Part shown: piece after piece, positions 5,131 to 35,069 of the stretch
Numbering within the stretch: position 1 is the first letter of the stretch
Layout of the letters: every line of letters begins with the position of its first letter
Notes under the pieces: model-generated
What the model was told of the DNA's origin: nothing
What the model saw: the letters and a program-made list of their open reading frames with translations, nothing else
The model's database searches: none
NCBI GenBank assembly: GCA_003697125.1
Contig: RFGB01000240.1
Location: 1-35,069 of the forward strand
From: Alphaproteobacteria bacterium
Lineage (GTDB): Bacteria > Pseudomonadota > Alphaproteobacteria > Rhodobacterales > Rhodobacteraceae
Length of the DNA: 35,069 nt
Direction: 5' to 3'
Program-made: the position numbers and the translations under genes

Positions 5131-5154
5131 TCGCGGCGACCGGCGCGCACCCCC

Positions 5155-5183
5155 TTTTCAGACCGGCTGCGCCCGCCTATATT
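5155..5183 (+). promoter_or_regulatory. Sigma-70-type promoter of ssrA
   Basis: A -35 box TTTTCA (5155-5160) and a -10 box TATATT (5178-5183) are separated by exactly 17 bases. The match is 4/6 and 5/6 to the consensus boxes and stands out in this GC-rich sequence. The expected start is near 5190, just before the acceptor half of the permuted tmRNA. This is a sequence match only; no start-site data are available. Confidence 0.65.
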
Positions 5184-5189
5184 GGGCCT

Positions 5190-5520
5190 GTCTCCGAAAG
5201 GGGACTATGGCGATAAACGCGCACGTAATAAGCGGATCGGACCCGGGGGCGGTACCCGGCGGCTCCACCAGAAACCCGATCGTTGGCGGGCACAAGGGGC
5301 CGAAACAGGATCGACGGACGTGTAAAGGTGTCGCTTTCGCCCGGTGAGCTACCACCGTTATCGGTGCAAGACGCACAATTGCCAACGACAATCGTGCTCC
5401 GGTGGCGATGGCCGCTTGATGCGGTCGGAGACACCGACATCTAAGCCCTGAGCCGTAGCAGGTTCAGGCGGGGTTCGCAGGCACCTGGCAACAGAAGCCT
5501 GCATCCCGTCCCGCCCGCAT
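5190..5520 (+). ncRNA. ssrA: Circularly permuted two-piece tmRNA (alphaproteobacterial type)
   Basis: tmRNA rescues stalled ribosomes and tags the nascent protein for proteolysis. The acceptor half lies first: T-stem CCGGG/CCCGG (5243-5247, 5255-5259), then CGGCTCC (5260-5266) and an encoded ACCA end (5267-5270). A spacer of 25 bases, presumably removed in processing, separates it from the coding half, which begins GGGGCCG (5296-5302). That heptamer pairs with CGGCTCC (one G-U) to form the acceptor stem across the gap. The tag frame is 5381-5419 and reads ANDNRAPVAMAA then TGA, with the hydrophobic-AA end recognised by ClpXP. GGCGGG (5467-5472) pairs with CCCGCC (5510-5515), enclosing GCAGGC/GCCTGC. 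The T-loop GGCGGTA is not the tRNA consensus. Outer ends are estimates. Confidence 0.93.
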
Positions 5521-15728: not shown

Positions 15729-16802
15729 TCAGACCCAGCCCCGAAGCTCGGCCAGGACGATCTCCTCCATCATCGCGATGTGGTCGTCGGCGTCGTTCAG
15801 GCAGGGGACATAGGTGAAGGTCTCGCCCCCCGCCTCAAGGAAGCTCTCGGCGATCTCGCCCCGGATCTCCTCCAGCGTCTCGACGCAGTCGCTGCTGAAG
15901 CCCGGCGCGACGACCGCGATCCGCCGCCGCCCGGTGCGCGCCAGCCGCGCCACTTCCTCGACCGTGTAGGGCCGAAGCCATTCCTCGGTGCCGAAGCGCG
16001 ACTGGAAGGCGGTGATCACCGCCTCCTCGGGCAGGCCCAGACGGGTGCGCAGAAGCCGCGTCGTCTTCTGGCACTGGCAGTGATAGGGATCGCCCTGCAT
16101 CAGATAGCGCTTGGGCATCCCGTGATAGGAGATCACCAGCGCATCGGGCCGCTGTGCCTCGGCGGCCAGCGCGGCCTCGATCGAGCGGGCGACCGCCTCG
16201 ATATAGGCCGGATGGTCGTGATAGGCCGGCACGGTGCGGATCGCGGGCTGCCATTTCAGCTTCATCAGGCTGCGGAAGGCCTGATCATTGGCCGTGGCGG
16301 TGGTCGGGCCGGAATACTGGGGATAGAGCGGGAAGAAGACCAGCCGCTCGCAGCCTTCGGCCTGCATGCGGCGGATCACGCTGTCGGTCGAGGGATTGCC
16401 GTAGCGGAAGCAGAAATCGACCAGCACGCGATCGCCGAAGCGCGCGGCCATGCGCGCGCCCAGCTTCTGCGCCTGGGCGCGGGTGATGGTGCGCAGGGGG
16501 CTCTCGTCGCGTTCCTGGTTCCAGATCTTGCGGTAGTTGCGGCCCGAGGAGAAGGGGCGCTTGGTCAGGATGATCAGCTGCAACAGCGGCTGCCACAGCC
16601 AGGGCGAATAGTCGATCACCCGCCGGTCGGAGAGGAATTCGTCGAGATAGCGCCGCATGGACCAGTAATCGGTGCCGTCCGGCGTGCCCAGATTGGCGAT
16701 GATGACGCCGATGCGCGCGGGCGGCATCGGCGGGTGGTCGGCCGGCGCGTGGATCAGGCGCTCCCGCGCCCAGGCAAGGCCCCGTTCCGTCGCGTCGGTC
16801 AT
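15729..16802 (-). CDS. hemH: Ferrochelatase
   Basis: HemH inserts Fe2+ into protoporphyrin IX, the last step of protoheme synthesis. The 357 residues include the N-terminal IGVIIANLGTPDGTDYWSMRRYLDEFLSDRRV, the catalytic His H227 in VISYHGMPKRY, and the metal-site acidic pair in the DCVETLEEI segment (E309, E312). The FFPLYPQYSGPTTATANDQ and FQSRFGTEEWLRPYT stretches are diagnostic. Six cysteines are present (131, 151, 242, 244, 306, 334), with none within 20 residues of the C-terminus. ATG 16802 gives a somewhat extended N-terminus (about 25 residues). Monocistronic by position, convergent with thyX. Confidence 0.95.
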   Translation of the reverse strand: MTDATERGLAWARERLIHAPADHPPMPPARIGVIIANLGTPDGTDYWSMRRYLDEFLSDRRVIDYSPWLWQPLLQLIILTKRPFSSGRNYRKIWNQERDESPLRTITRAQAQKLGARMAARFGDRVLVDFCFRYGNPSTDSVIRRMQAEGCERLVFFPLYPQYSGPTTATANDQAFRSLMKLKWQPAIRTVPAYHDHPAYIEAVARSIEAALAAEAQRPDALVISYHGMPKRYLMQGDPYHCQCQKTTRLLRTRLGLPEEAVITAFQSRFGTEEWLRPYTVEEVARLARTGRRRIAVVAPGFSSDCVETLEEIRGEIAESFLEAGGETFTYVPCLNDADDHIAMMEEIVLAELRGWV

Positions 16803-27326: not shown

Positions 27327-27770
27327 TCAGGCCGGGGTGGTCAGCCGCATGGTCAGCGGCGGCCAGGGCGGGCCGGACAGCCAGGCCATCAGCCGCCGCG
27401 CGAAATCCCCCCGGTCGACCACCGCGGTGCTGCGGAACCAGAAGCGGACCTCGGCCTCGGCCAGCCCGGCGATCGAGGGATAGACATAGGCGCAGCCCAG
27501 ATAGGCGCCCCGGCCGTCGCGGATCACCCAGGCGAAGGACCGCCCGGCGGTGAATTCCCGCTGGTGCCAGGCCAGGTCGATGCGGTTCTCCTCCTCGGTC
27601 AGGCCGGCAGGCCAGCCGTCATGGGACTGGGCGGCCAGCGCCTCGGCGCTCTCCATCACCGCGGCATAGTCCTCGTCGGCATCGGCCAGCGTCAGCCAGT
27701 GCAGGTGGAACGGCCCCAGCGTCACCCGCCGGGGGATCTCGCGGCCGGCGAAGGCGGGATGGGGCCGCAT
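27327..27770 (-). CDS. GNAT-like N-acetyltransferase
   Basis: A 147-residue protein with GNAT-type layout: FHLHWLTLADADEDYAAVMESAEAL, a FAWVIRDGRGAYLGCAYVYPSI strand segment, and AEAEVRFWFRSTAVVDRGDFARRLMAWL, where the acetyl-CoA loop would be expected; the classical Q/RxxGxG/A loop is not clear, so cofactor binding is uncertain. ATG 27770 shares one base with the stop of the D-carbamoylase gene (TGATG); a GTG at 27773 is also possible. It is the last gene of the hyuA-hyuB-carbamoylase operon. It might acetylate an amino acid released by that pathway, which is speculation. Confidence 0.75.
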   Translation of the reverse strand: MRPHPAFAGREIPRRVTLGPFHLHWLTLADADEDYAAVMESAEALAAQSHDGWPAGLTEEENRIDLAWHQREFTAGRSFAWVIRDGRGAYLGCAYVYPSIAGLAEAEVRFWFRSTAVVDRGDFARRLMAWLSGPPWPPLTMRLTTPA

Positions 27771-28717
27771 CACGCGCCCCGCGCCGCCGGGGACAGGGGC
27801 AGCGGATCGCCCGCCCCCTTGCGTTCGACGATCAGCCGGTAGGCGCCCGGTTCGCGGTGGCGGGCGAGGTCGAAGATCGTCTCGCGATAGCGCCGGCCCA
27901 TGCCGAGGTCGATCTCGGCGCAGATCACCTCGTCGTCGAGCCCCGCGGCCATCGCCACGATTTGACCCGAGGGCGCGATGATCGCCGACTGGCCCAGCAT
28001 GTCGGAGCCCTCCTCGCGCCCGCATTTCGCCGCGGCCACCACCCACAGCGCATTCTGATAGGCCCCGGCCTGCATCGACAGATGGTTGTGGAAGGCCGAC
28101 AGCGAATCGATCTCCGCGTGGCCGGTATGGTCCAGCGGCGTGTTGTAGCCGAGGCAGACCAGTTCGGCCCCCTGCAGGCCGAGGCAGCGCCAGGCCTCGG
28201 GCCAGCGCCGGTCGTTGCAGATCAGCATCCCCAGCCGGGCGCCGAAGGCGGGGAACACCGGAAAGCCCAGATCGCCGGGAAGGAAGTAGCGCTTCTCGAG
28301 ATGCTGGAAGGCGCGGCCGGGCTGGGGCGCGTCATGGCCGGGCAGATGCACCTTGCGATACCGTCCGATCACCTGGCCGTCGGCGCCGACCAGGAGCGCG
28401 CTGTTGAAATGGCGCCCGTCGGCGGTGCGCTCGGCATAGCCCAGCACGAAGCCCACCCCCAGCGCGGCGGCGGTCTCGAACAGCGGCCGCGCCTCGGGGC
28501 CGGGCAGGGGACCCTCGAACCAGGCTTCCAGCGCATCGCCTTCCAGGATCCAGCGCGGAAAGAAGCTGGTCAGCGCCAGTTCCGGAAACACCACCAGCCG
28601 CGCGCCCCGGGCATGGGCTGCGCGCATCAGCGCCACCATGCGCGCCACGGCGGCCGAGCGGGGCTCGTGCCGGGCCACCGGGCCCATCTGTGCCGCGGCG
28701 ACGATCAGGCGGGTCAT
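27770..28717 (-). CDS. N-carbamoyl-D-amino-acid hydrolase (nitrilase superfamily)
   Basis: The 315 residues align along their length with Agrobacterium D-carbamoylase: VVFPELALTSFFPRW, YRKVHLPGH, FQHLEKRYFLPGDLGFPVF, LICNDRRWPEAWRCLGLQGAE and FHNHLSMQAGAYQNALW. The Glu-Lys-Cys triad is E46-K122-C167. The residues that bind the substrate carboxylate in the Agrobacterium enzyme are kept (H124, H139, R170, R171). It would hydrolyse N-carbamoyl amino acids to the amino acid, CO2 and ammonia. ATG 28717 overlaps the hyuB stop (ATGA, 28714-28717). D-specificity is inferred from similarity; beta-ureidopropionase and N-carbamoylputrescine amidase are less likely. Confidence 0.9.
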   Translation of the reverse strand: MTRLIVAAAQMGPVARHEPRSAAVARMVALMRAAHARGARLVVFPELALTSFFPRWILEGDALEAWFEGPLPGPEARPLFETAAALGVGFVLGYAERTADGRHFNSALLVGADGQVIGRYRKVHLPGHDAPQPGRAFQHLEKRYFLPGDLGFPVFPAFGARLGMLICNDRRWPEAWRCLGLQGAELVCLGYNTPLDHTGHAEIDSLSAFHNHLSMQAGAYQNALWVVAAAKCGREEGSDMLGQSAIIAPSGQIVAMAAGLDDEVICAEIDLGMGRRYRETIFDLARHREPGAYRLIVERKGAGDPLPLSPAARGA

Positions 28718-30501
28718 ACCGGCGCGCCCTGGCCGGCGCGGGCGCGGCGTTCGGCGGCGGTGGCGGCGGCGTCGAGCTGCCCGTCGCGGATCACCACGCC
28801 GTAGTCGGCCAGCGCCTTCCCGGCCGAGATCAGCCCGTCGCGCACATCGTCGAGCACCCGCGCCGGGTCGCGTTCCAGCGGGTCGCCATAGCCGCCGCCG
28901 CAGGGCCCGATGGCCAGGAAGGTGTCCCCCGCCCTGGCGGGATGGTAGGGCACCTTGGAGGGCAGCGCCTCGTCGCGCCCGTCGGCATGGATCAGGTGCA
29001 GCTCGGCCGGAACGCCGTCGGCGCCGCCGCTGAAGCCCCATGGCCGGAAGCGGTGACCCTCGCCCTCGACCGAGAACCCGCCGGGTTCCAGGAACTGAAA
29101 GGCGCGCACCGCGCCGATGCCGCCGCGGCTGCGCCCCGGGGCGGCGGCATTCTCGCGCAGCTCGTAGCGGGTGACGCGCATCGGCAGATGGCTTTCGATG
29201 TCCTCGATGGGGTTGTTGCGGGTATTGGCATAGAGCGTGTCCACCGCGTCCATCCCGTCGCGGCGGAAGCGTCCGCCATAGGCGCCCTCGAAGATCTCCA
29301 TGTGCACCCAGTGGGTCTCGCCGCGCAGGCCCGAGAAGGCGATGACCTTCAGATTGCCGATTCCGGCCGAGACCTTCTCGGGCACCGCCTGGGCCAGGGC
29401 CTTCATCACCGTGTCGGCCAGCTGGTTGCCCGGGGTGAAGCGCGCGATGACCGGGGCGGGGAAGATCGGGTTGGCAAGACAGCCCCGGGGGGCGACGATC
29501 CGGATCGGCCTCGTCAGGCCGGAATTCTGCGGGATGTAGCCATGGATGTCGGAATCGAGCAGCACCGACCGGATGGTCAGCCAGATGGCGATGTCCACCG
29601 TGCCCACCAGCGGCATGTTGATCGGCCGGTCGGGCACCTGCGGGGCGGTGCCGGTCAGATCCACGGTCATCTCGTCGCCGCTGACGGTGATGCTCACCAC
29701 GATGGGAAGCTCGCGCCGCGCGGGGTCGGGATCGTCGAGAAAGCCGTCGATGAAGGTCTCGGCGCGATAGGTCCCGTCGGGAACCGCGGCGATCGCCTGG
29801 CGCATCATGCGTTCGGAATGGTCCATCAGGGCGCGGCTGGCCGCCTCGACCGTGGCGATGCCGTAGCGGCCGATCAGCTCGCGGAACCGCTCGGCCCCGA
29901 TCTCGCAGGCGGCCACCTGGGCCTCCATGTCGCCCACCACCAGATCCGGGGCGCGGACATTGTCGCGCAGGATCTGCCAGACCGCCTCGTTGCGCACCCC
30001 GCCATCGACGACCTTGATCGCCTTGAACTGCAGGCCCTCGGCATAGACGTCGATGGCATCGACGATGCCGCACGATCCCGGGCTCAGCGCGCCGACATCG
30101 AGATGATGCGCGGTGGTGCCCGCGAAGCCCACCAGCGCGCCGTCGTGGAAGACCGGGACGATCAGGGCGATGTCGGGGCCGTGGCTGGCCCCGCCATAGG
30201 GGTCGTTGTGCATGATGACATCGCCGGGGCGGAACGGGGTGCCGCGGCGGCGGAACACCTCGATCACGTTCTTCACATAGCCCGGGATCGGGCCGGACTG
30301 CAGCGGGGTTGACTGCAGGGATTCGGCCAGCTGGTTGCCTTCGGCATCGGTCAGCGCGGTGCCGAAATCCTCCGATTCCCGGATGATCGAGGAATAGGAC
30401 ATCCGCATCAGCTTGTAGCCCATCTCGATCGCGATGTTCTGCAGCGCCCCCTGGATGACCGAGGCGGTGACGGGGTCGATCTGGTTCATGGGCATCCTCA
30501 T
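28714..30501 (-). CDS. hyuB: Hydantoinase B / oxoprolinase subunit
   Basis: A 595-residue protein of the HyuB family, the partner of HyuA in ATP-dependent hydantoinases, N-methylhydantoinase, 5-oxoprolinase and acetone carboxylase-like enzymes. Landmarks: IDPVTASVIQGALQNIAIEMGYKLMRMSYSSIIRESEDFGTALTD near the N-terminus, PGDVIMHNDPYGGASHGPDIALIVPVFHDG, and the C-terminal GPCGGGYGDPLERDPARVLDDVRDGLIS. ATG 30501 overlaps the hyuA stop (ATGA, 30498-30501), so the two subunits are translationally coupled. Substrate is not fixed by the family; the adjoining carbamoylase favours a hydantoin. Confidence 0.92.
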   Translation of the reverse strand: MRMPMNQIDPVTASVIQGALQNIAIEMGYKLMRMSYSSIIRESEDFGTALTDAEGNQLAESLQSTPLQSGPIPGYVKNVIEVFRRRGTPFRPGDVIMHNDPYGGASHGPDIALIVPVFHDGALVGFAGTTAHHLDVGALSPGSCGIVDAIDVYAEGLQFKAIKVVDGGVRNEAVWQILRDNVRAPDLVVGDMEAQVAACEIGAERFRELIGRYGIATVEAASRALMDHSERMMRQAIAAVPDGTYRAETFIDGFLDDPDPARRELPIVVSITVSGDEMTVDLTGTAPQVPDRPINMPLVGTVDIAIWLTIRSVLLDSDIHGYIPQNSGLTRPIRIVAPRGCLANPIFPAPVIARFTPGNQLADTVMKALAQAVPEKVSAGIGNLKVIAFSGLRGETHWVHMEIFEGAYGGRFRRDGMDAVDTLYANTRNNPIEDIESHLPMRVTRYELRENAAAPGRSRGGIGAVRAFQFLEPGGFSVEGEGHRFRPWGFSGGADGVPAELHLIHADGRDEALPSKVPYHPARAGDTFLAIGPCGGGYGDPLERDPARVLDDVRDGLISAGKALADYGVVIRDGQLDAAATAAERRARAGQGAPV

Positions 30502-32570
30502 GTCGCGATGCGGATCAGGATGTTGCCGGCCTGGTCGACATGGAAGCTGTCGCCCGGGCGCAGGATGGTGGTGCTGTCCTGCTGCACGATCACCGCCGGG
30601 CCCGGGATCGGGGTGTCGGCGGGCAGCAGGTCGCGGCGGTAGAACGCGGTCTGGTGCGCGGCGAGGCCGTCGCCGGTGCGGAAGACCACCGGCGCGACGC
30701 GGATCCTGGCCGCATCCAGGCTGCCGCCCGTGGGCCGCGGCGCGGGGCGGATCTTGACCGTCTCGCCGAAGCCGGTGACGCGCAGATTGACGATTTCCTT
30801 CGGCGCGCCGGGGAAGGCGCGGCCGTATTCCTCGCGGTGCAGCTGTTCGAAGCGCGCGAACAGCGCCGCCTCGGCGGCCGCGTCGAAGGCGCCCGCGGGC
30901 ACCGGCACGCGCAGCTCGTAGCCCTGGCCGACATAGCGCAGATCGGCCGCGCGCTGGAACCTGACCCGGTCCGGGCCGATTCCGTCGGCGGCGAACTGCG
31001 CGGCCAGCCCGGCCTCCATCTCCTCCAGCGCCCGGGTGATGTGCCGGTGCTCGATCTGCCCCGAGACCTGGAAGGCGGTGCGGATCGCGTCATACTTCAG
31101 GTCGGTGGTCAGAAGCCCGGTGGCCGAGGTGATGCCCGGATGGGGCGGCACGATCACCTCGGGGATCGACAGCATCGCCGCGACCTCGGCCGCCTGCATC
31201 GGCCCCGCCCCGCCGAAGGCGACCAGGGTGAAGTCGCGCGGATCCAGCCCCCGCTGCACGGTGCGCGAACGGATGGCATTGGCCATGTTGGCGTTGACGA
31301 TGGTCAGCACCCCTTCGGCCGCGGTCAGCCGGTCGAGGCCGAGCCGGCCGGCGAGCCGGTCGATCGCCGCCTCGGCCGCGGCGGGATCGAGGCGCATCTC
31401 CCCGCCGAGGAAATTCCCGGGATCGAGCCGGCCCAGCACGACATTGGCGTCGGTCACGGTGGGTTCGGTCCCGCCATGGCCATAGGCGGCGGGCCCCGGC
31501 CGGGCCCCGGCCGAACGCGGGCCGACCCGGAACGCGCCGCCCGCATCCACCCAGGCGATCGAGCCGCCCCCCGCGCCGATGGTGTGGATGTCGATCATCG
31601 GCACCATCAGCGGGAAGCCGGCGATCCAGGTGTCGCGGGGGCTGGCCTCGGCGAAGCTGCCCGCCCGGACGATGCCGATATCGGCCGAGGTGCCGCCGAC
31701 ATCGAAGGTGATCAGGTTGTCGCGCCCCGACAGCGCGCCGGCCCAGCGCCCGCCCAGCACCCCCGCGGCGGGTCCCGACAGCAGCGTCATCACCGGGCGG
31801 GCGGCGACCATCTGGGCGGTGGCCACGCCGCCGTTGGAGGCCATGATGTGCAGGTCGGCCTTCAGCCCCGCCCGCCCCAGCCCTTCGGCCAGATCGGTCA
31901 GATAGCGGCGCATCTTCGGGCCGACGAAGGCGTTCATCGCCGTGGTGGTGAAGCGTTCGAATTCGCGGAACTGCGGCGAGACCTCGGCCGAGCAGGTGAC
32001 GAAGGCCCCGGGGAACTCCTCCTCGACGATGGCGCGGGCGCGGGCCTCATGCGCCGGGTCGAGATAGGAGAACAGGAAGCACACCGCCACCGCCTCGACC
32101 CCGGCCGCCCGCAGCTGCCGGGCGGCCCGCCGAACCGCATCCTCGTCCAGCGGCACCAGAACCTCGCCCCGGGGCGGGGCGATGCGGTGCGGCACCGTCA
32201 GCCGGTGGCGGCGGCGGATCAGCGGCCGGTCCTGCCAGGGGATTTCCTGCTGGATCGAGAAATGCTGCGGGCGCTGGTGGCGGCCGATATGCAGGATGTC
32301 GCGATACCCCTCATTGGTGATCATGCCGCATTCGGCGCCGTCATGTTCCAGTATCGCGTTGGTCGCCGTGGTGGTGCCGTGATAGACGTGATCGATGACG
32401 CCGGGGTCGATGTCGAAGCGGCGGCACAGCTCCAGGATCCCCTCCAGAACCCCGCGCGCCGGATTGTCGGGCGTGGTCGGGGCCTTGTGGACATGCGTCG
32501 TCCCGTCGGCGGCGCCGAAATGGACCAGGTCGGTGAAGGTGCCCCCGACATCGACGCCGACAAGATGCAT
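30498..32570 (-). CDS. hyuA: Hydantoinase A / oxoprolinase subunit
   Basis: A 690-residue ATPase-like subunit of the ASKHA (actin/Hsp70/sugar kinase) fold. The phosphate-binding motif VGVDVGGTFTDLVHFG is at the N-terminus, with later family stretches YHGTTTATNAILEHDGAECGMITNEGYRDILHIGRHQRP, GPAAGVLGGRWAG, TFDVGGTSADIGIV and FGGAGPMQAAEVA. With HyuB it opens a cyclic amide with ATP hydrolysis. I chose ATG 32570 because GGAGG lies 8 bases upstream; an ATG at 32576 would be only 2 bases from it. First gene of a four-gene operon in which every junction overlaps. Divergent from the imidase-like gene with about 170 bases between. Confidence 0.92.
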   Translation of the reverse strand: MHLVGVDVGGTFTDLVHFGAADGTTHVHKAPTTPDNPARGVLEGILELCRRFDIDPGVIDHVYHGTTTATNAILEHDGAECGMITNEGYRDILHIGRHQRPQHFSIQQEIPWQDRPLIRRRHRLTVPHRIAPPRGEVLVPLDEDAVRRAARQLRAAGVEAVAVCFLFSYLDPAHEARARAIVEEEFPGAFVTCSAEVSPQFREFERFTTTAMNAFVGPKMRRYLTDLAEGLGRAGLKADLHIMASNGGVATAQMVAARPVMTLLSGPAAGVLGGRWAGALSGRDNLITFDVGGTSADIGIVRAGSFAEASPRDTWIAGFPLMVPMIDIHTIGAGGGSIAWVDAGGAFRVGPRSAGARPGPAAYGHGGTEPTVTDANVVLGRLDPGNFLGGEMRLDPAAAEAAIDRLAGRLGLDRLTAAEGVLTIVNANMANAIRSRTVQRGLDPRDFTLVAFGGAGPMQAAEVAAMLSIPEVIVPPHPGITSATGLLTTDLKYDAIRTAFQVSGQIEHRHITRALEEMEAGLAAQFAADGIGPDRVRFQRAADLRYVGQGYELRVPVPAGAFDAAAEAALFARFEQLHREEYGRAFPGAPKEIVNLRVTGFGETVKIRPAPRPTGGSLDAARIRVAPVVFRTGDGLAAHQTAFYRRDLLPADTPIPGPAVIVQQDSTTILRPGDSFHVDQAGNILIRIAT

Positions 32571-32743
32571 GGCCATGTCCTCCCTGCCGTGGCGGTCCGT
32601 CCGCGCGACGCTTCACATGCTAGGCAATGCCGCCGCGGCTGGCAACGCCGCCGCCCGCCGCGGCGGGGGTTGAGAAAGCCCGCGCGCTGGCGCAGTTTGG
32701 GCGCGCCGGGCCGCGGGCCGGCGGGACGAATGGAGGGAGCGCA

Positions 32744-33643
32744 ATGCCAAAGGAGATCTTCGTTGCCTATGGCGTCGATGTCGACGCGGTCGGCGGATGG
32801 CTCGGATCCTACGGGGGCGAGGACAGCCCCTGCGACATCAGCCGCGGCATGTTCGCCGGCGAGGTGGGGTCGATGCGGCTTCTGCGCATGTTCGACCGCT
32901 GGGCGATCCCGACCACCTGGTTCATCCCGGGCCATTCGATCGAGACCTTCCCCAAGCAGATGAAGGCGGTGGCCGATGCCGGCCACGAGATCGGGATGCA
33001 TGGCTATTCGCACGAGAATCCGATCGCCATGACGCCCGAGCAGGAGGAGGCGATCTTCGACAAGTGCATCGAGGTCATCACCGACCTGTGCGGCAAGGCG
33101 CCGCGCGGCTATGTGGCGCCGTGGTGGGAGTTCGGCCCGAAGACCAACGAGCTGTTGCTGAAGAAGGGCATCAAGTATGACCATTCGCTGATGCACAACG
33201 ACTTCCACCCCTATTACGTCAGGGTGGGCGACAGCTGGACCAAGATCGACTATTCCAAGCATCCCAGCCACTGGATGAAGCCGCTGGAGCGCGGGACCGA
33301 GACCGACCTGATCGAGATCCCCGCCTCGTGGTATCTGGACGACCTGCCGCCGATGATGTTCATCAAGGCCGCGCCCAACAGCCACGGCTTCGTCAGCCCG
33401 CGGGTGATCGAGGACATGTGGCGCGAGCAGTTCGACTGGGTCTATCAGGAATACGACTATGCCGTGTTCACCCTGACGATCCATCCCGACGTGTCGGGCA
33501 AGCCGCAGGTGCTGATGATGCATGAACGGCTGTTCGCCCACATGTCGCGCCATCAGGGGGTGCGGTTCGTGACCTTCGAGGAGATCGCCGACGACTTCGC
33601 CCGGCGCTATCCCCGCAGCGGAACCGCGCGCCCGGTCAGCTGA
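32744..33643 (+). CDS. Metal-dependent polysaccharide-deacetylase-fold hydrolase (HpPgdA / cyclic imide hydrolase-like)
   Basis: The 299 residues are strikingly similar from end to end to the H. pylori protein called Pgd[90 protein letters not shown] and [16 protein letters not shown]. The metal ligands align: D14, H86 and H90, with D12 beside them. There is no signal peptide or membrane anchor, so peptidoglycan is an unlikely substrate; relatives in this subgroup hydrolyse cyclic imides, and PuuE allantoinase shares the fold. ATG 32744 follows GGAGGGAG. It overlaps the next gene (TGATG) and is divergent from hyuA, which supports a cyclic amide or imide substrate. Confidence 0.85.
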
Positions 33644-33948
33644 TGTGCGGCCTGTGCGGGGTCTTCGGCGTCGCGCGGCACTGGACCGATGCGTCCGGTG
33701 CCGCCGATGCGGGCACCGGCACGGCCGAACGCATCCACCGCGCGCGGGTGGCAAACCGGATGCTGGGCCTGTTCGGGCTGAGCCTGCGCGAATGGGCCGG
33801 CCGCTACACCCTGGCCTCGCGCACCGGGCGTGCCGCGGTGGTGGACAATCTCGGCGCGGTCTGGCCCGAGGCCGAGCGTCTGGCGGGCCGGCCCTGCGAT
33901 CCGCTCGATCCCGCGGTGATCGCCGCGATGGAGGCGCGGCGTGACTGA
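33643..33948 (+). CDS. Conserved-looking small Cys protein, uncharacterised
   Basis: A 101-residue soluble protein beginning [16 protein letters not shown]: a C2-x-x-C5 pair at the very N-terminus, then H13-W14. A third Cys is at 85, and the centre is helical (TAERIHRARVANRMLGLFGLSLREWAGRYTLAS). The CxxC plus His pattern could bind metal or iron-sulfur. ATG 33643 shares a base with the stop of the imidase-like gene, and its 3' end overlaps the CobW gene by 8 bases, so all three are co-translated. I recall similar short N-CxxCG proteins next to CobW GTPases in other alphaproteobacteria, but cannot name a family. Function unknown; a metal-handling partner is a reasonable guess. Confidence 0.85.
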   Translation: MCGLCGVFGVARHWTDASGAADAGTGTAERIHRARVANRMLGLFGLSLREWAGRYTLASRTGRAAVVDNLGAVWPEAERLAGRPCDPLDPAVIAAMEARRD

Positions 33949-34981
33949 GCCGGCGCCCCCCGATCCCGCCCCGCCCGAGGGCGGGGCGATCACCGTCAAT
34001 GTGCTGACCGGCTTCCTCGGCTCGGGCAAGACCCATCTGCTCAACCGCCTGCTGCGGCTGCCCGAGCTGGGCGGGGTCGCGGTGCTGATCAACGAGTTCG
34101 GCGAGGTCGGGCTGGACCATCTGCTGGTCGAGGCGCTGGATGACGAGGTGGTGCTGCTCGCCTCGGGCTGCGTGTGCTGTTCGATCCGCGGCGATCTGAA
34201 GGAGGCGCTGGTCGGCCTGCATGACCGCATGCGCCGCGGGCTGGTCCCGCCCTTCGACCGGGTGGTGCTGGAGACGACCGGCCTTGCCGATCCCGGTCCG
34301 ATCGTCGCCACGCTGACCGCCGATCCGGTGCTGTGCCACCATTTCCGGCTGGGCAACATCGTGACCGTGGTCGACGCCCTGGCGGGGCTTCACAACCTTG
34401 ACGCGCATCCCGAGGCGCTGCACCAGGCGGCGGTGGCTGACCGGCTGGTGATCTCGAAGACCGACATGGCCGCACCCGACCGGCTGGAGGCGTTGCGCAC
34501 CCGGCTTCGGGCGATCAATCCGGCGGCCGAGGTGATCGAGAGCGGCGCCGACAGCCCGGTTCCGGCGACGCTGCTCGTGTCGGACATCCATCGCCCCGGT
34601 GCGCGCGAGGCCGAGGTGGCGCGCTGGCTGGCGGCGGAGGGTGACGGCGCGGGCCACGGTCATCACCATCATCACCATGACGGATCGGTGCGCGCCTTCG
34701 TGCTGAGCGCCGGGGCGCCGCTGGACTGGGCGGCATTCGGGCTGTGGCTGTCGATGCTGCTGAACCGCCACGGCACCCGCATCCTGCGCGTGAAGGGGCT
34801 TCTGGACATCCGGGGGGTGGACTCGCCGGTGGTCATCCACGGCGTCCAGCATACCATCCACCGGCCCGAGCATCTGGCCGCCTGGCCCGACGGCGACCGG
34901 CGCACGCGGCTAGTCTTCATCGTCGACGGTCTGGATCCGGCGCTGATCCGCCGTTCGTTCAGCGCCTTCGTCACCGGCTGA
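33941..34981 (+). CDS. CobW-family GTP-binding metallochaperone
   Basis: The 346 residues show the COG0523 pattern: Walker A GFLGSGKT (24-31), NEFGEVGLDH, the metal-binding CxCC at 77-80 (SGCVCCSIRGDLKEAL), ETTGLADPGPI and the guanine-specificity SKTD. After the GTPase domain comes a His-rich stretch (H239, H241-H246) and the CobW C-terminal domain (LSMLLNRHGTRILRVKGLLDIRG). These proteins deliver zinc, cobalt or iron to client metalloenzymes; some assist nitrile hydratase or Zn-enzyme maturation. GTG 33941 is the start, with GGAGG upstream, overlapping the small Cys gene. The operon suggests that the client is the imidase-like enzyme. No B12 role is implied. Confidence 0.93.
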   Translation: MTEPAPPDPAPPEGGAITVNVLTGFLGSGKTHLLNRLLRLPELGGVAVLINEFGEVGLDHLLVEALDDEVVLLASGCVCCSIRGDLKEALVGLHDRMRRGLVPPFDRVVLETTGLADPGPIVATLTADPVLCHHFRLGNIVTVVDALAGLHNLDAHPEALHQAAVADRLVISKTDMAAPDRLEALRTRLRAINPAAEVIESGADSPVPATLLVSDIHRPGAREAEVARWLAAEGDGAGHGHHHHHHDGSVRAFVLSAGAPLDWAAFGLWLSMLLNRHGTRILRVKGLLDIRGVDSPVVIHGVQHTIHRPEHLAAWPDGDRRTRLVFIVDGLDPALIRRSFSAFVTG

Positions 34982-35069
34982 CCGGCGCGCCGGACCGCGG
35001 CGCGTCCCGCGGCCCCGCCCGCCCGCCCGCCGCCGGCGCCCGGCCCCGCCGGTTGCGCGGCCCCCAGGC

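Follow-up and report, generated by a model that had tools for sequence, protein, structure and literature searches.

The stretch examined here, contig RFGB01000240.1 of an alphaproteobacterium assigned to the Rhodobacteraceae (35,069 nucleotides, hereafter the window), carries near its end three closely packed plus-strand genes that we refer to as IMD, MID and COB. IMD (32744..33643, stop TGA at 33641-33643) encodes a 299-residue hydrolase of the deacetylase fold resembling HpPgdA of Helicobacter pylori; MID (33643..33948, ATG at 33643) encodes a 101-residue protein of an unnamed family, beginning MCGLCG; and COB (33941..34981, start GTG at 33941) encodes a 346-residue COG0523 (CobW-type) G3E GTPase. 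The first junction, TGATG, has one base common to both genes, while the second is an 8-base overlap. Coordinates and overlaps, checked on the sequence, are exactly as given in a preliminary description of this DNA, which had read the three genes as a dedicated metal-loading module. Chance open reading frames (ORFs) can be ruled out: IMD matches PDB 3qbu, COB matches PF02492 and CobW_C, and MID is kept in other genomes. A search of positions 32400-35069 gave neither a plus-strand promoter-like site nor a terminator-like site.

IMD matches HpPgdA (PDB 3qbu) with an E of 1.4e-152, 210 of 292 aligned residues (72%) being identical, and scores 61 bits against Pfam Polysacc_deac_1. It has D12, D14, H86, H90, W127, W128 and H247 at the HpPgdA positions, as these are given in the structural report (Shaik et al., 2011, PMC3084791). 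The features of an HpPgdA-like imidase are thereby present, namely the metal ligands D14, H86 and H90, the catalytic D12 and H247, and high identity to a solved member. The same three ligands had been named beforehand, and they match the HpPgdA metal site; the accompanying label "imidase-like" is backed by the 72% identity and by published imidases of that family. The curated alternatives miss their cut-offs, with 71.7 of the 424.6 bits needed for the PuuE allantoinase model TIGR03212, and 33.9 and 20.5 of 400 and 13.3 of 800 bits for the NCBI PgdA models (peptidoglycan-N-acetylglucosamine deacetylase). From its sequence, IMD is probably best read as a cyclic-imide hydrolase, and the name "polysaccharide deacetylase" seems to mislead when applied to this branch. 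IMD is found in 83 plasmid records. In four loci (L071, L074, L077 and L080, family f71), the imidase copies have His at the Asp12 position.

MID represents a real family, with a Met-Cys-x-x-Cys N-terminus followed by what is modeled as a small globular domain, and it has no name or function in the libraries searched. The window protein has no match in Pfam or NCBIfam at E ≤ 1 and no credible match in the PDB. A family profile fared no better there, its top match, rat RAP (E 0.025), being rejected. When 17 members were scanned singly, the matches were weak and scattered (best E 0.14 in Pfam and 0.019 in NCBIfam, the latter to the HVO_0649 zinc finger); no Pfam family was matched by more than 1 of the 17, no NCBIfam family by more than 3, and HypA was not among the matches. 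Class II glutamine amidotransferases have an MCGxxG-like start, and membership of MID in that class found no Pfam support. A chance or miscalled ORF is ruled out by the family being kept with the same start. A phage origin was likewise rejected, as viral contigs held no relatives of MID or IMD (by single-protein queries, which reach close relatives only) and PHROGs no match to the window MID. There are no fusions of MID to IMD or COB in the ORF sets compared. Among plasmids, tblastn finds MID in 67 of 72,556 records at E ≤ 0.01, nearly half of them from Rhizobium and the others from Shinella, Klebsiella, Thioclava, Paraburkholderia, Pantoea and others; in the plasmid rows listed it is annotated as "hypothetical protein" or not at all.

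The window MID features Cys2, Cys5, His13 and Trp14. Across the family, starts were located by the pattern [MV]C..[CS] near the profile start, which every row fitted, and the 136 rows thus obtained reduce to 131 distinct sequences, five of what we call the named loci being the same contigs as unnamed ones. Cys2 and Cys5 are invariant in all 131. Because the named loci were found via patterns with the Cys motif or a DPLD stretch, their cysteines are partly there by design; in the 56 MID loci outside that set, found by profile or tblastn, both cysteines are present in all. Four weak matches among the 11 of one MID search (E 2e-4 to 0.007; L011-L014) were left out of set A1, and the regions around two of these (L087, L088), which hold no trio, were left out of the locus counts. 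The CxxC-and-His start ascribed to MID in the preliminary description is present in the window protein; across the family CxxC is constant and His13 variable, giving way to Gln, Asp, Pro, Tyr or Arg in some members.

The first codon is Met in 133 of the 136 rows and Val (GTG) in the other 3, and since the sequence immediately upstream of the start appears to differ between loci, Cys is most likely residue 2 of the protein. In these rows it is followed by Ser, Gly, Ala, Asn or Glu as residue 3. A small residue at that position favors removal of the initiator Met, so that with the small residues near the MID start an N-terminal cysteine would be exposed. Two AlphaFold predictions, each with a different first sequence, both give low confidence to the first ~26-30 residues and both predict with confidence an alpha-beta-beta-beta-alpha-alpha domain for the remainder; the structure alignment retained 48 of 82 MIDs. 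Searches with this fold gave no solved structure standing clearly above background: the lowest E values from Foldseek were 0.25 and 0.28, and the highest Z from VIA was 4.6, across 63 residues.

The third gene product scores 147.5 bits against PF02492 (cut-off 20.7) and 82.5 bits against PF07683, CobW_C (cut-off 22), and matches YjiA at 9.6e-41. Its motifs are GFLGSGKT, NEFG, CVCC at 77-80, SKTD and HHHHHH at 241, and these, together with the Pfam domains, bear out its earlier description as a COG0523 protein with CxCC and a His-rich stretch. COB has the domains and motifs of COG0523, from which GTP hydrolysis and metal binding are predicted. Within that family it falls below the NCBI cut-offs for CobW (116.5 of 332.1 bits), ZigA (103.6 of 600) and the YjiA-type GTPase (173.8 of 361). 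CxCC is present in all 49 MID-linked GTPases compared (48 chosen from 134 collected, plus the window's own; 48 of the 49 distinct) and the His stretch in 33 of the 49. In a tree with 27 COG0523 paralogues, which are 30 loci out of many more matches minus three that proved MID-linked, all of the linked GTPases lie on one side of a branch with support 99/98 that recurs in 98% of 200 bootstrap trees; two of the paralogues (L212, L001) sit on very long branches. The MID-linked GTPases sampled are thus one clade, apart from the paralogues of set-holding genomes.

The three genes also occur together. Across 387 alphaproteobacterial genomes, MID is found in 27, IMD (E ≤ 1e-60) in 27 and both in 26. 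With the window left out, the one-sided Fisher probability of this overlap is 5e-37 when genomes are counted and 2.5e-22 when genera are (kinship being handled to genus level only). In one genome (G184) the deacetylase gene that adjoins MID is a more distant one, scoring 106 bits (L072), and in another (G118) a 40% identical IMD is found without MID. At all 30 places holding an IMD of at least 58% identity, the window included, MID is adjacent or within ~1.2 kb. Conversely, the 30 alphaproteobacterial MID loci outside the window all have a deacetylase-fold gene, the distant one at L072 included, and 28 of them have COB; the other two (L071, L074) are second copies in genomes where the other copy has COB. 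In a second sample, drawn from the Pseudomonadota, 14 of 397 genomes have IMD and 13 of 394 have MID. The genomes with MID coincide with the 13 in which IMD identity is at least 61%, while the one remaining IMD shows 38% identity; at 12 of 12 loci outside the window all three genes lie within some 4 kb. Among the best 80 of the 172 named loci, COB is in the fetched flanks of all 80 and IMD in those of 76, with an asparaginase or amidase gene near the remaining four; as these loci were picked by MID likeness, the set measures only what accompanies MID. Individual carriers include Shinella sp. HZN7, which has the trio, and Rhizobium tropici CIAT 899, in which MID and IMD are adjacent. Beyond the Pseudomonadota, the trio is found in Rubrobacter (Actinomycetota) and in three contigs labeled as a Rokuibacteriota metagenome-assembled genome (L098, L102, L105).

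The order of the set is also largely kept. At 26 of the 30 alphaproteobacterial loci MID lies on the strand of IMD and begins no more than 256 bases after it, and COB closely follows MID on the same strand at all 28 that have it. In Pantoea, Klebsiella, Paraburkholderia aromaticivorans and several genomes of other classes (f180, f185), a major facilitator superfamily (MFS) gene and two short-chain dehydrogenase/reductase (SDR) genes come between IMD and the MID-COB pair, and at L077 and L080 the strands of the set members differ. The unit is, in other words, independent of its surroundings. Among these, the frequent neighbors are amidase or asparaginase genes, SDR dehydrogenases, PotD-type ATP-binding cassette (ABC), MFS or NCS1 transporters and a GntR regulator. 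An amidase or asparaginase is expected as the half-amidase acting after an imidase, and these neighbors, with the SDR and transporter genes, are compatible with imide catabolism. The preliminary description had made conserved co-occurrence the touchstone of its dedicated three-gene unit: co-occurrence proves very strong in both genome samples, the unit persists in operons of different make-up, and the three genes very probably form one working unit.

How the partners relate within the unit is hinted at by their co-divergence, for which 119 loci were thinned to at most 57 by IMD distance. In four selections, the rank partials between locus distances are 0.59 to 0.72 for MID-COB, 0.25 to 0.59 for MID-IMD and -0.31 to -0.01 for IMD-COB; that is, controlling for MID leaves no positive relation between IMD and COB distances, and MID follows both partners. 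Control genes compared with MID given COB yield 0.13 (SDR), 0.02 (substrate-binding protein, SBP) and 0.21 (permease). In our view the pattern does no more than hint that IMD and COB are linked through MID.

We therefore favor, with moderate confidence, the reading that the trio is a metal-loading module dedicated to a cyclic-imide hydrolase, working in the manner of HypA/HypB without belonging to those families. That COB and MID load or repair the metal site of IMD is likely, the basis being family knowledge and gene linkage. We infer the imide substrate, the zinc, the GTP-driven loading and a bridging and relaying role for MID. IMD would open small cyclic imides within a catabolic operon, using one metal ion, probably zinc, on its Asp-His-His site; COB in its GTP form would take up the metal at the CxCC site; and MID would bind both COB and IMD, handing the metal on by way of its flexible N-terminal Cys-x-x-Cys. 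A third ligand might come from the free amine of Cys2 after removal of Met, or from His13 where present. With the chaperone genes in the operon of their own client, all would be produced together. A bolder version, which we put forward tentatively and hold to be somewhat less than an even chance, makes MID the founding family of N-terminal-cysteine metal-relay adaptors, in which a hook of Cys2, Cys5 and the chain amine would move the ion from CxCC to the imidase Asp-His-His site by a route common to the H. pylori enzyme. If this is true, the trio would be a complete operon-encoded route from GTPase through adaptor to client.

Several observations weigh against loading of IMD by its neighbors. 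HpPgdA produced alone in Escherichia coli contained an ion, possibly zinc (PMC3084791), and work on the P. putida imidase evidently used the cloned enzyme, so that the partners are not strictly needed; their chief importance may lie in conditions of metal scarcity or of competition from the wrong metal. HxnM of Aspergillus nidulans and the imidase of P. putida YZ-26 are described, in the accessible parts of the reports, with neither a MID nor a GTPase partner, and a peptidoglycan deacetylase activity reported for HP0310 in crude extracts (cited in PMC3084791) favors the older name. Some relatives of IMD also stand apart. On a Rouxiella badensis plasmid (L217) the fetched flanks of a relative of 70% identity contain neither MID nor a GTPase gene; as its Asp12 is replaced by Gly, this relative may be an abnormal enzyme. 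Nor are MID and COB in the fetched flanks of relatives in Variovorax (L215, 60%), a Cupriavidus fragment (54%), two haloarchaea (42-48%) and G118 and G777 (38-40%). Two alphaproteobacterial loci, L071 and L074, have MID and IMD without COB, and plasmid L022 of Paraburkholderia sp. D15 has MID and COB with no IMD nearby. Finally, the amidase used as a control also tracked MID given COB (0.41), and IMD the permease given MID (0.38), so that co-inheritance accounts for part of the co-divergence. L215 holds a different cassette, of "polysaccharide deacetylase", urea carboxylase-associated protein and amidase genes, and a cassette of the same type lies at 15190-16083 of L019, a record also holding the trio.

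Of the other ways to account for the set, the most serious, albeit unlikely, has MID as a partner or regulator of COB alone, through nucleotide exchange, GTPase activation or supply of metal to CxCC, the pair aiding the imidase without contact between it and MID. MID does track COB more than IMD when only close IMDs are taken (partial 0.72 versus 0.25), the two remain adjacent where IMD is some 3 kb off, and L022 keeps both with IMD not nearby; L071 and L074, on the other hand, keep MID with IMD and lack COB, and in the wider selections MID tracks IMD with COB removed (0.56-0.59). The opposite assignment makes MID part of the hydrolase, as a small subunit with a structural or activating role, and gives the GTPase a separate function. 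It would explain why MID comes directly after IMD on the same strand at 26 of 30 alphaproteobacterial loci and why nearly all IMD genomes have MID. We consider it improbable, given that the HpPgdA homotetramer crystallized alone (PMC3084791) and that in split operons it is COB, not IMD, that MID accompanies.

Less probable again, and in our view doubtful, is that COB and MID serve another metalloenzyme of the operon, such as a dihydropyrimidinase or hydantoinase. Such genes occur in some clusters (L015, L083, L085, L086, L098) and L022 has a dihydroorotase-family gene in place of IMD, yet they are absent from many trio clusters (L016-L018, L023, L024), in which IMD is the recurring gene. The dihydroorotase-family gene of L022, which lies beside MID and the GTPase, is possibly a second client. 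That the linkage merely reflects catabolic cassettes moving as blocks, many copies being plasmid-borne, we regard as scarcely credible: the set is kept despite changed neighbors, order and strand (L077, L080 and the Pantoea, Klebsiella and Paraburkholderia types) and at MID identities down to about a third, reciprocal presence is near-complete in two samples, and among 10 plasmid regions with IMD relatives picked for diversity, five with the trio and five without, only those five relatives lack the partners nearby.

In the window itself, the trio is neighbored by hydantoinase A- and B-like genes, a CN hydrolase and an ABC importer. The CN hydrolase and the hydantoinase B- and A-like genes (27770-32576, minus strand) are transcribed away from the trio and score below the caprolactamase cut-offs; a similar CN hydrolase/hydantoinase set adjoins the trio at L060, and the two hydantoinase genes do so at L080. 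Elsewhere in the window lie a ferrochelatase gene (15732-16802, minus strand; PF00762, 359.9 bits) and an alphaproteobacterial (permuted) transfer-messenger RNA (tmRNA) gene (5151-5505, plus strand; RF01849, 286.9 bits), two overlapping tmRNA models being the sole matches of the whole window to Rfam at gathering thresholds.

The metal-loading module that we favor resembles HypA/HypB and UreE/UreG, in which a small metal-binding protein and a G3E GTPase load one metalloenzyme with nickel, and HypA, too, uses residues at its extreme N-terminus. Those systems differ in their sequence families, in their metal, nickel, and in their clients: MID matches no Pfam family, and COB lies below the HypB cut-off. 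A second parallel is ZNG1-METAP1, in which the client itself carries, as one of its domains, the small cysteine-rich metal-binding module through which the COG0523 GTPase finds it, whereas MID would be a separate protein.

Comparable to COB is Nha3, the activator of Fe-type nitrile hydratase, likewise a COG0523 GTPase encoded with a single metalloenzyme client of nitrogen catabolism (PMC2770081, PMC9164220); its client is an iron enzyme, and a third small protein is not described in the accessible parts of these sources. In the GTP form COG0523 proteins have a high affinity for Co or Zn, probably via CxCC, and YjiA and YeiR favor Zn (PMC7895991). YjiA, CobW and ZigA share with COB the GTPase family and CxCC, though COB is below their curated cut-offs, and while ZigA-type members respond to zinc starvation, COB sits in a catabolic operon. 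A 2022 review calls for gene clusters that would predict the clients of COG0523 GTPases (PMC9164220), and the trio supplies a candidate client together with a dedicated clade of GTPases and a small protein family that is new. No paper linking COG0523 or CobW with an IMD-type hydrolase is among those found, the single hit of one search being unrelated table rows. A supplementary figure of Shaik et al. (2011, PMC3084791) covers the gene neighborhoods of HP0310 and HP0312, however, and the IMD-COB pair may have been drawn in earlier literature. "Undescribed", as it had been suggested that the system may be, holds for MID in the libraries searched and papers found; first notice of the IMD-COB neighborhood we do not claim.

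Catabolic counterparts are HxnM of A. nidulans and the P. putida YZ-26 imidase, HpPgdA-like cyclic-imide hydrolases that, as would IMD, act before an amidase (PMC9304392, PMC8478523). The A. nidulans pathway comprises HxnW (of polyol-dehydrogenase type), HxnM (a cyclic imidase likened to HpPgdA by its authors) and HxnN (an amidase) (PMC9304392), an arrangement that fits the bacterial SDR/imidase/amidase neighborhoods. The whole set may have a counterpart in H. pylori. HP0310, which is HpPgdA and 72% identical to IMD, is annotated as a peptidoglycan deacetylase, at odds with our reading of IMD; HP0312 is, like COB, a member of COG0523 (Haas et al., 2009, PMC2770081), elsewhere listed as an ATP-binding protein; and between them is the hypothetical HP0311, HP0309 being an N-carbamoyl-D-amino acid amidohydrolase (PMC3866246). 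The locus-number order thus matches the trio, and HP0310-HP0311-HP0312 may carry the same set. Shaik et al. mention polyamine importers and D-Ala-D-Ala peptidases, and HpPgdA from E. coli was inactive on the substrates tried, allantoin included (PMC3084791). Inactive alone, and apparently neighbored by a small protein and a COG0523 GTPase, HpPgdA is worth re-examining.

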